From NCBI GenBank assembly GCA_022749815.1, contig JAKIWV010000003.1:284048-348047 (forward strand): a DNA stretch of 64,000 nt. The letters run 5' to 3'. The notes beneath the pieces are model-generated. The model saw nothing but the letters and a program-made list of their open reading frames with translations. It had not been told where the DNA came from and ran no database searches. Below are positions 28,756 through 31,791 of this stretch, in pieces. This stretch comes from Thermoplasmata archaeon (GTDB lineage: Archaea; Thermoplasmatota; Thermoplasmata; Lutacidiplasmatales; UBA184). A program made the position numbers and the translations under genes. Positions within the stretch are counted from its first letter, which is position 1; every line of letters starts with the position of its first letter.

Positions 28756-29490
28756 CTACCGAGCCGCCGGACCCGTGGGGCCCCGGGTCCAGGACGCCCG
28801 GATATGATCGAGCAGTTCCACCAGCATCCGCGTATTCAGTTTTCCCGTGTTCGTGTTCTGCGGGCTCGGATGATACGACCCCCAGAGCATCGGACGACCG
28901 GCACCGAGAGGAACGCACCGACCGTGGGCGAACTCCTCCGCGGGACGCGGCAGGCCATAGAGCTCTGGGACCGAGTCTCGCAACGCGTCCCAGGCGAAGC
29001 CTCCGAGGGCAAGGAGGGACCGGGCGCGGGTTAGAAGCCGGAGCTCGCGGGAAAGGTACGGAAGGCAGGCAGCCTTCTCCGATGGGGTGGGCCGGTTGTC
29101 CGGAGGAACGCATCGAACAGCCGCGGTAAGATACGCATCATCGTACCGCAATCCGTCTCCCCGGCGGGTCGATTGGGGCTGGCTCGCGAAGCCGGCAGCG
29201 TGGAGGGCCCCTACGAGGAATTCTGCGGACCGGTCTCCGGTGAAAACGCGGCCGGTCCGGTTCGACCCATGAGCCGCCGGTGCCAACCCCACGAGCACGA
29301 GCCGCGCGTTGGGGTCACCGAATCCCGGGACGGGGCGCCCCCAATACGTGTCGTTCCGGAATTGCTTCTTCTTTTCGCGGGCGACCCGTTCCCGATACGA
29401 GACCAAGCGTGGGCACCGGCGACAGACCACCACGTCCTCCCGAAGCTGTTGCAGACTATCGGCCAAGGTCGACTCGCCACCTCGAGGCAC
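28756..29490 (-). CDS. Uracil-DNA glycosylase, family 5 (UDGb)
   Basis: This enzyme removes uracil and some other deaminated bases from DNA. The 244-residue protein has the family 5 active-site motif GLAPAAHGSNRTGRVFTGDRS, in which alanines replace the polar residue of other UDGs, and motif 2 HPSPQNTNTG. Cysteines at CRRC near the N-terminus, in VRCVPP and in AACLP fit the 4Fe-4S cluster of this family. The start GTG 29490 is the longest supported; a TTAAG element about 20 nt upstream is closer than usual. The gene diverges from the radical SAM gene at 29562. Confidence 0.92.
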   Translation of the reverse strand: MPRGGESTLADSLQQLREDVVVCRRCPRLVSYRERVAREKKKQFRNDTYWGRPVPGFGDPNARLVLVGLAPAAHGSNRTGRVFTGDRSAEFLVGALHAAGFASQPQSTRRGDGLRYDDAYLTAAVRCVPPDNRPTPSEKAACLPYLSRELRLLTRARSLLALGGFAWDALRDSVPELYGLPRPAEEFAHGRCVPLGAGRPMLWGSYHPSPQNTNTGKLNTRMLVELLDHIRASWTRGPTGPAAR

Positions 29491-29532
29491 CGGAACGGGT
29501 CCTACCGCTTAACGGCCCGGCGCGGACAAGCC

Positions 29533-29538
29533 TTTACA
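29533..29538 (+). promoter_or_regulatory. TATA box for the radical SAM gene
   Basis: TTTACA is centred about 26 nt before ATG 29562, the leaderless spacing seen at many genes here. It argues for 29562 rather than the longer in-frame extension starting at 29280. Confidence 0.5.
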
Positions 29539-29561
29539 CGCCCCCGGGTCTGCGGCGCCCG

Positions 29562-30698
29562 ATGGAGTTCGAGGTCCTGCAGCAGCTCCCGATGGCCTCG
29601 AGCCATCGCGGGATGCTCTCTCCGGGCTGCCAGCAATGCCAGGAGGGGAAGAAACTCGTGCTCTTCGTTACCGGAGTATGCCGGTTCCGGTGCTTCTACT
29701 GTCCGGTGTCCGAACGCCGGAACCAGCTCGATGTGGTCTATGCGAACGAGCGACCCGTGCGGACCGATGCGGACGTCCTCGAGGAAGCGCGGTCGATCGG
29801 TGCCGCGGGAACGGGGATCACCGGCGGGGACCCACTGGGCGTCATCGACCGTACGGTCCATTATGTCGAGCTCCTCAAAGCGGAATTTGGCCCGGACCAC
29901 CACATCCATCTGTACACTCACGAGCCCAACCCCGCCAAGCTCGAGCGGCTCGCGAGGGCCGGACTGGACGAGTTCCGGCTGCACATCCCCCACTACCTTT
30001 GGGGCTCATTGGAGAGTCACGGGTCAGCCTACAGGGAGGTGCTGGCCGCGGCCCCGGACTGGGGGATCCGTCGAGGGGTGGAGATCCCGGTGCTCCCCGA
30101 GAAGGAGAAGGAGCTTCGCCGGCTCCTTCGTTCGCTCGACCGGTTGCACCTCGATTTCATCAACCTGAACGAAATGGAATTCTCGGCCACCAACGAGTCC
30201 GCCTTGCACGAACATGGCTACCGAGTCGATCCATGGAACGGCTGGGGGGTGAAGGGAAGCCGGGCCACGGCGGAGCGGCTCGTTCGCGAGATGCGACTCG
30301 CGACGCCGTTGCACTACTGCTCCTCCCGTTTCAAGGACGGCGTCCAGCTCCGACAGCGACTCCTTCGACGGGCCGAACGGACGGCACCGTCCTTCGCCGA
30401 ACGGACCGAGGACGGAACGATTCGGCTGGGCGTCGTGGAAGCCGAAGACAATCTACAGTTGCCGCGGGTCATCGAAGCGATCGGCTCGGTCGGCCGCGTG
30501 CCGGCGAGCGACTATCGGGTGGACGCAGTGCGTCGACGCGTAGAGCTCTCGCCCGAGCGTTTGCGCCGGTTCGCCCATCGGCTTCGCTTCCCCGCCTTTG
30601 CGGTGGAGGTGTACCCCACCGATGACGCCCTCGAGGTGGAGCGCACGCCGCTCAATTCGGCGGCGTTTCCCACGTTCCGCGCCGGCGGCGGTCGGTAA
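29562..30698 (+). CDS. Radical SAM protein related to pyruvate formate-lyase activating enzymes
   Basis: The 378-residue protein has an N-terminal CQQC pair, then the radical SAM cluster motif C-x3-C-x2-C in GVCRFRCFYCPVS, and the SAM-binding GTGITGGDPL segment. It resembles the archaeal group COG2108, whose substrate is unknown. The barrel continues through HIHLYTHEPNP and FINLNEMEFS. The C-terminal 100 residues are a separate arginine-rich region. The start at ATG 29562 is supported by the TATA element 26 nt upstream. The 3' end overlaps the convergent zinc protein frame by 187 nt. Confidence 0.85.
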   Translation: MEFEVLQQLPMASSHRGMLSPGCQQCQEGKKLVLFVTGVCRFRCFYCPVSERRNQLDVVYANERPVRTDADVLEEARSIGAAGTGITGGDPLGVIDRTVHYVELLKAEFGPDHHIHLYTHEPNPAKLERLARAGLDEFRLHIPHYLWGSLESHGSAYREVLAAAPDWGIRRGVEIPVLPEKEKELRRLLRSLDRLHLDFINLNEMEFSATNESALHEHGYRVDPWNGWGVKGSRATAERLVREMRLATPLHYCSSRFKDGVQLRQRLLRRAERTAPSFAERTEDGTIRLGVVEAEDNLQLPRVIEAIGSVGRVPASDYRVDAVRRRVELSPERLRRFAHRLRFPAFAVEVYPTDDALEVERTPLNSAAFPTFRAGGGR

Positions 30699-30907
30699 TT
30701 CTCGTCGCAGACATGACTCCCGTGGGTTAGATACCGAACGTCCCCTCGTTGGTGCTTCAGAGAGCACGGGCCCCAGCCGTCGTCCTCGCCCCCGTACCAC
30801 ATCGGACAGTCCCGGCAGCGGAGAACGTTCCGGGCCGTTACGCTCCCCGATCCTTGGGAAGAACTCGACGCCGATCCCAGAGATCCGGAAGCGTCGTCCG
30901 CGCTCAC
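30512..30907 (-). CDS. Small zinc-binding protein downstream of folD
   Basis: The frame encodes 131 residues. Residues about 25-70 carry a clear cysteine pattern: CRDCPMWYGGEDDGWGPCS, then HGSHVCDENY, suggesting one zinc site (CxxC, C, H/C). The first GTG, 30907, overlaps the folD stop (GTGA), so translation is coupled. Everything after about residue 70 is antisense to the radical SAM gene and is Arg/Ser-rich with no pattern, so the functional protein may be only the first half. The function is unknown. Confidence 0.55.
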   Translation of the reverse strand: MSADDASGSLGSASSSSQGSGSVTARNVLRCRDCPMWYGGEDDGWGPCSLKHQRGDVRYLTHGSHVCDENYRPPPARNVGNAAELSGVRSTSRASSVGYTSTAKAGKRSRWANRRKRSGESSTRRRTASTR

Positions 30908-31791
30908 GGGAGGCCTCCCGCCTGAAGTTTCCACGCCGCGACCACGTTGAGCATCAGCTGGGCGACGGTGACCGGGCCCACGCCCCCAGGAACCGGCGTG
31001 ACCGCTTCGGCCCAGCCGTCGAGCGACGTGGCGTTCGCATCCCCCGTGGCCCGAGACCCCGACGGGGTCGAGTCGTCTGGAACGCTGCTCAGACCAACGT
31101 CCACGACGATGGCGCCTTTCGGCACGACCGTACGGTCCAACAGGCCCGGCACTCCGGCGCAGCTGACGATGATGTCATTCCCAACGAGCGATTCGCTGAG
31201 TCGTGGGGTTCTCGAGTGCGCGATGGTTACCGTAGCGTCCGCGGACGCCCCCCGGCCGGCCATGAGTAGGGCCAACGGAAGTCCCACCGTCGACGAGCGG
31301 CCAATAATCGCGACGCGACGATTGCGAATCGGGATGGAATAATGCCGCAGGATCTGAAGGACCGCGAGTGCCACGGCCGGCGCGTGAACCGCCTTTTGCG
31401 CAACGATTCGCCCGAGATTCACGGTCCCTACCCCGTCCACATCCTTCTCGGGTGACAGGGCATCGACCGCGCCACGGAAGTCGACACCGTCGGGAAGTGG
31501 GTGCTGGATGAGTACCGCATGGACCGAGGGATCCTTGTCGAGGGCCTGAACCTGGCGTTGCAGCTCCGTCGTCCCTGTCCCTTCGGGGAGGGTCACGTCG
31601 CGAAATGCGATGCCGACCTCGTGCGAGGTGCGCGCCTGGTTCCTCAGGTAGAAGGAGAAGGGCCCGCCGCTCCCAACATGGACGCTGGCAAGGAGGGGAG
31701 GTGTGGGCCGCGCGCCCGGGTTTCTGAGTTGCACCCGTACTTCGCTGAGAATGGAATCGCGGACCGGCTTGCCTATGAGCCAACGCGTCAG
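30904..31791 (-). CDS. folD: FolD-type methylenetetrahydrofolate dehydrogenase with altered cyclohydrolase site
   Basis: FolD oxidises methylene-THF to methenyl-THF and usually also hydrolyses it to formyl-THF. Family motifs are VLIQHPLPDG, SPEKDVDGVG, GRSSTVGLPLALLM (NADP site) and PVPGGVGPVTVAQL. In the active-site helix the residues are FYLRNQARTSHEVG. The tyrosine is kept, but the lysine four residues later (Lys54 in E. coli, Lys56 in human) is Gln, so cyclohydrolase activity may be lost. The first ATG/GTG/TTG is GTG 31734. However, the 19 codons before it (…RWLIGKPVRDSILSEVR) match the normal FolD N-terminal helix, and an in-frame stop lies just upstream. Coordinates therefore begin at the CTG at 31791, a tentative choice. 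Confidence 0.8.
   Translation of the reverse strand: MTRWLIGKPVRDSILSEVRVQLRNPGARPTPPLLASVHVGSGGPFSFYLRNQARTSHEVGIAFRDVTLPEGTGTTELQRQVQALDKDPSVHAVLIQHPLPDGVDFRGAVDALSPEKDVDGVGTVNLGRIVAQKAVHAPAVALAVLQILRHYSIPIRNRRVAIIGRSSTVGLPLALLMAGRGASADATVTIAHSRTPRLSESLVGNDIIVSCAGVPGLLDRTVVPKGAIVVDVGLSSVPDDSTPSGSRATGDANATSLDGWAEAVTPVPGGVGPVTVAQLMLNVVAAWKLQAGGLP

Follow-up and report, generated by a model that had tools for sequence, protein, structure and literature searches.

The window, by which we mean the whole stretch of 64,000 nucleotides of Thermoplasmata archaeon DNA analysed here, encodes a true FolD that has, on balance, probably turned into a methylene-tetrahydrofolate (methylene-THF) dehydrogenase with no, or nearly no, methenyl-THF cyclohydrolase activity. 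The YxxxK motif of bifunctional FolD reads YxxxQ in this protein. The codon concerned is CAG, in YLRNQARTSHEVG, and the encoded Gln52 aligns without gaps with the catalytic lysine of solved FolDs (YMASK in 8wfc, YVLNK in human MTHFD2). Glutamine in place of the catalytic lysine, the starting point of the initial annotation, was found in every readable FolD of the family (Table 1), which rules out a sequencing error or a single odd genome. The Tyr, Asp and NADP motifs that characterize a monofunctional methylene-THF dehydrogenase are all present. If the enzyme is dehydrogenase-only, the cell must probably carry out the cyclohydrolase step in another way.

Both FolD Pfam domains scored above their gathering cut-offs (PF00763, 80.1 bits versus 32.8; PF02882, 152.1 bits versus 27). 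An AlphaFold model of the protein, built with 22 family sequences as input, had a mean pLDDT of 91.7, and a Foldseek search with this predicted model recovered human MTHFD2 (7ehm; TM 0.90, 34% identity), confirming the FolD fold on the predicted model. A search of the 2.08-Mb genome with a FolD model gave a single match, and no second copy was found. The protein missed the NCBIfam cut-off for bifunctional FolD (best score 213.5 bits versus 438); 30 NCBIfam models matched it, and the 25 listed were all below cut-off and all named bifunctional. The start of the gene is probably upstream of the GTG at 31734, with CTG the likely start codon. No in-frame ATG, GTG or TTG occurs between the CTG at 31791 and that GTG, and the FolDs of relatives start at residue 1, where the aligned codon is ATG or GTG in some. 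CTG occupies this position in five of the six members of the genus (the window's genome and L032-L035) and also in L003 and L123, while the sixth member, L036, has ACG. A radical SAM protein adjoins FolD (29280-30695) and scored above the cut-off of no NCBIfam family.

Table 1. Features of the folD gene and its product, in positions of the window, with residue counts in the family
Feature	Position	Strand	Observation
Coding sequence of folD with its stop codon (P0001, 295 aa)	30904..31791	minus	PF00763 E 2e-22; PF02882 E 1e-44
Probable CTG start codon of folD	31789..31791	minus	Residue 1 is the start of relatives
Phe45, replacing active-site serine (human Ser49)	31657..31659	minus	F 83, Y 4 (n = 87)
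Tyr48 (E. coli Tyr50), retained	31648..31650	minus	Y in 86/87
Gln52, replacing catalytic Lys54 (E. coli; human Lys56)	31636..31638	minus	Q in 87/87
Gln96-His97 (human Gln100-Leu101)	31501..31506	minus	Residue 96, E 70, Q 17; residue 97, H 87/87
Asp119 (E. coli Asp121), retained	31435..31437	minus	D in 89/89
Dinucleotide-binding GRSSTVG, retained	31282..31302	minus	G164, R165, S166, V169, G170 each 88/88
PGGVGP motif, retained	30973..30990	minus	P268, G269, G270, G272 each 86/86

The family counts are based on 89 distinct sequences with >44% identity to the window's FolD, of which two do not contain the site region and 87 are readable. Glutamine was also found in all 79 readable sequences from named loci (80 fetched, one without the region), whose species partly overlap those of the 89-sequence set. 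Positions 49, 50, 51 and 53 of the helix vary across the family, and basic residues lie close by (R or K at residue 50 in 78 of 87 and at residue 54 in 81 of 87), a point against the dehydrogenase-only reading should one of them reach the pterin. Since Gln52 and His97 are invariant while the helix neighbours vary, the site looks rebuilt under selection rather than decaying, and Gln52 appears to be held by selection.

In comparison with bifunctional FolD and the DC domain of MTHFD1 (E. coli FolD, human DC301 and MTHFD2), the window's FolD shares the Pfam domains, the fold, the Tyr and Asp residues and the NADP and PGGVGP motifs, but differs in the changes of Lys to Gln, Ser to Phe and Leu to His and, in most of the family, of Gln to Glu. 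Seven key residues have been described for the human enzyme: Tyr52, Lys56, Gln100, Leu101, Asp125, Gly273 and Gly276 (PMC3368264). The Lys and Leu are replaced family-wide and the Gln in 70 of 87 sequences, the window's own protein retaining it as Gln96; the Tyr, the Asp and the glycine motif are retained. Human Ser49, the counterpart of Phe45, has also been proposed for the cyclohydrolase site (PMC6443876), and this position is Ser in 87 of the 92 lysine-type FolDs outside the family. The earlier statement that the other motifs are intact thus holds for Tyr48, Asp119 and the NADP motifs but not for the active-site Ser and Leu.

A dehydrogenase-only enzyme is expected with Gln52 because of data on the E. 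coli K54N and human K56E mutants. E. coli FolD K54N retains about 19% of the dehydrogenase and has undetectable cyclohydrolase, while Q98H retains about 8% and about 1%, respectively (PMC5688156). In human K56E the isotope ratio of the dehydrogenase is nearly unchanged and the KM is >6-fold higher; the computational study concerned argues that Lys56 takes no noticeable part in dehydrogenase catalysis, while a role in the cyclohydrolase was not excludable (PMC9173628). The E. coli mutants are altered in the same catalytic region, keeping part of the dehydrogenase and losing the cyclohydrolase (PMC5688156), but theirs are spontaneous single changes that arose in the laboratory, whereas here the altered site is natural, concerted and common to a whole family. 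We infer that Gln52 behaves like the Asn of K54N. It would still hold the pterin for hydride transfer but could not perform the proton step of ring opening, and the enzyme would then only interconvert methylene- and methenyl-THF. Human K56Q reportedly loses cyclohydrolase activity; a search of the open-access literature did not find that report. With the K54N analogy and the retained Tyr, Asp and NADP motifs, the dehydrogenase-only FolD put forward in the initial annotation is the best reading of the sequence, although still unproven. Two enzymes known to be monofunctional are the yeast NAD-dependent Mtd1 (1EDZ) and that of Peptostreptococcus productus (PMC6443876); 1EDZ was absent from the matches of the window's FolD at E 0.001.

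We also compared FolDs across the phylum. The window's family is the Lutacidiplasma/UBA184 group, a name that we infer for its genome from FolD relatives that include UBA184 and Candidatus Lutacidiplasma silvani. Candidatus Lutacidiplasma belongs to the Lutacidiplasmatales, Thermoplasmatota, and PMC9287336 assigns UBA184 to that order and to the same family. That paper describes the order from acidic soils and mentions histidine degradation, and its main text contains neither folate nor FolD. The order is wider than the window's family, and its two other families have Val or Met at the lysine site. Outside the family, 92 of 109 FolDs from 108 genomes of the phylum have Lys and 17 do not (nine Arg, three Ile, two Val, two Asn and one Met), in a non-random sample for which divergent families and genomes without FTCD_C were chosen. 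The proposed alignment with archaeal FolDs places the glutamine throughout the family, with Lys in most FolDs sampled outside it. Mapped on a 105-FolD tree, presence or absence of the lysine must have changed at least 10 times, counting the change in the window's family; the number is approximate, the tree having been made by a quick method with 27 of its 102 inner branches weak. The FolD of Thermoplasma acidophilum (3NGL), from the same phylum, resembles most of the window's family in having Glu where E. coli has Gln98, but it retains the lysine (YARAK), unlike the window's FolD.

Several of these sequences deserve mention in their own right. One genome with no FTCD_C match (G008, locus L151) has tandem FolD genes, with Ile at the catalytic position in one and Lys in the other, possibly a division of the two activities. 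In two others (G034 and G198; loci L157 and L161) the FolD naturally has Asn for the catalytic Lys, as in the carolacton-resistant K54N of E. coli, and Asn also stands at the Gln98 position. The order-mates G256 and G253 (L085 3750-4586 and L086) have a far more altered FolD, with Lys changed to Val, the Gln98 loop shortened and KDIEG for KDVDG; both also have a methanopterin gene, that for beta-RFAP synthase, above cut-off, and neither has an Mch match. A contig titled 'bacterium' (L260) that carries this archaeal FolD type is probably from a mislabelled MAG. Among the open-literature matches listed on FolD, cyclohydrolase, FchA and formiminotransferase, with subscription journals outside the scope, none described a lysine-less FolD occurring naturally in archaea.

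In Clostridium (FolD and FchA) and Methylobacterium (MtdA and Fch), dehydrogenase and cyclohydrolase reside on separate proteins (PMC7219735, PMC9618320). The genome searches for FchA-like and Mch enzymes proposed in the initial annotation had different outcomes. Mch, for which controls were detected, gave no match in 24 genomes, the window's own included, and is ruled out as the missing cyclohydrolase. An FchA-family domain was found, and the putative cyclohydrolase here, in contrast to the Clostridium and Methylobacterium systems, is fused within FTCD. The FTCD gene (contig C3, 279210-280721) ends 3.3 kb before the window and encodes FTCD_N, FTCD and FTCD_C in one chain (FTCD_C E 2.8e-35). 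The protein matched rat FTCD (1tt9, E 3.8e-73), and exceeded the TIGR02024 cut-off (365.6 bits versus 221.25); further matches were the T. maritima cyclodeaminase (1o5h) and 7vg4, a methenyl-THF cyclohydrolase of solved structure. Its C domain scored 75 bits against the FchA model NF045657, below the cut-off of 275, and the gene is consequently filed as FTCD and not as FchA. Judged by its relationship, this C domain might perform the cyclohydrolase step. Conversion of methenyl-THF to 10-formyl-THF may then proceed via this domain, spontaneously or both; formate-THF ligase (Fhs) may supply 10-formyl-THF directly to PurH, and FTCD may pass methenyl-THF from histidine breakdown to FolD. The FTCD_C domains of the family keep PGGG, D390, P428, D456, N474 and N478 in 35 of 35 sequences. 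Against such a role, the family does not conserve positions 361 and 364, where the 40 other domains have Lys (39) and Tyr (38), respectively.

FTCD_C was present in 13 of the 14 family genomes first tested (110-144 bits), in 80 of 101 genomes of the order, in 37 of the 39 with ≥90% completeness and ≤5% contamination, and in 219 of 292 genomes of the phylum, the genomes compared being MAGs and incomplete. A special divergence of FTCD_C in the window's family found no support, as equally low scores occur in other families of the phylum (e.g. G046, G054). Among the 108 genomes outside the family, those without FTCD_C comprised 54 with Lys, one with Arg (G021) and one with Ile (G231), and those with FTCD_C comprised 38 with Lys and 14 without, G008 being entered as Lys for its second FolD copy. 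This raw table is suggestive, yet related genomes repeat one another, and we therefore used a test controlled for the tree. Independent-pairs tests found no association (9 and 6 pairs, starred branches; median p 1), with too few informative pairs for significance, and we dropped the idea that FTCD_C and loss of the lysine are correlated. The data allow a dependence of lysine loss on FTCD_C. Genomes whose sole FolD lacks the lysine and that gave no FTCD_C match are G021 and G231 and, in the family, G259 (93% complete) and G297 (91%), both with Gln, along with further family genomes of lower completeness. The separate cyclohydrolase foreseen in the initial annotation thus has a candidate, but one whose domain also occurs in 38 lysine-type genomes.

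The presence of FTCD_C is accounted for by histidine breakdown, since urocanase co-occurs with it (13 of 14 family genomes, the window's own included). Formiminotransferases can also replace 5-formyl-THF cycloligase (PMC3223725), so that FTCD need not exist for FolD's sake. A hut cluster around FTCD or urocanase was not apparent among the six neighbours checked by Pfam, none of which is a histidine gene (RibD_C, FAA hydrolase, XPG nuclease and PAC2 next to FTCD; AlkZ-like and DLH next to urocanase). A sub-case of the dehydrogenase-only reading, which we consider somewhat unlikely, dispenses with a replacement enzyme altogether: methenyl-THF would hydrolyse spontaneously, Fhs would make 10-formyl-THF for purines and FTCD would serve histidine breakdown solely. 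The co-occurrence with urocanase and the null tree test fit this sub-case, as does the presence of Fhs and PurH in the window's own genome. PurH was found in 13 of 14 family genomes; Fhs was found in 12, and the lack of a match in the other two speaks against the sub-case. The E. coli K54N strain is viable, and its authors maintain that methenyl-THF can be hydrolysed without an enzyme, but its growth is very slow (PMC5688156).

It is rather improbable that the window's FolD is still bifunctional, with the invariant His97, together with residue 96 (Glu or Gln) and Gln52, taking over the lysine's proton step. The constancy of His97 in the family and the concerted nature of the pocket changes favour this possibility. 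Outside the family, His occurs at the residue-97 position in two of the 17 lysine-less FolDs (G006 and G231, of different families) and in none of the 92 lysine-type FolDs (Fisher p 0.023, uncorrected for relatedness). However, the other 15 lysine-less FolDs do not have it, and the E. coli Q98H enzyme, in which the His sits one position earlier, shows only the trace of cyclohydrolase given above (PMC5688156). That the relocated site is a second, independently evolved arrangement across the family, and perhaps in two others, with both activities kept through a different chemistry, seems quite improbable.

We regard as very unlikely the use by FolD of a modified, methanopterin-like pterin, with the pocket changes reflecting the new cofactor. 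Low family scores were observed for Fhs (586-703 bits versus 761-849 in the other genomes tested) and AICARFT (282-308 versus 330-408 in others), less so for urocanase (260-281 versus 287.5-296, a slight gap). In the window's genome the low-scoring Fhs and PurH genes lie outside the window (G000, contig C1, 229357-230988 and 355551-356498). These scores, and the beta-RFAP synthase of the order-mates with the still more altered FolD, favour such a cofactor. On the other hand, the low Fhs and PurH scores possibly reflect either an adaptation shared by the folate enzymes or simply rapid evolution, and base composition could explain low scores as well; the FTCD_C scores are also low in the family, but E-values are as weak or weaker in other families. 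Beta-RFAP synthase gave no match in the window's genome and no hit above cut-off in any family genome (two of 14 had weak hits), and with Mch also unmatched a methanopterin pathway finds no support in the window's genome. Resistance to carolacton-like FolD inhibitors of soil myxobacteria is a highly implausible cause of the lysine loss: K54N and Q98H did arise as carolacton resistance in E. coli (PMC5688156), the compound comes from Sorangium and acidic soils are where the order was described (PMC9287336), but distant families of the phylum have lost the lysine too and there is no known exposure.

Because the NCBIfam models listed are all named bifunctional, automatic naming would credit these archaea with a reaction for which the sequence gives no support. 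FTCD is suggested as a possible cyclohydrolase in archaea. The natural Lys54Gln enzyme of a whole family, together with the unrelated losses of the lysine elsewhere in the phylum (to Arg, Asn, Ile, Val and Met), provides a ready test set for the lysine's part in each half-reaction and for the conditions under which a cell can dispense with the cyclohydrolase.
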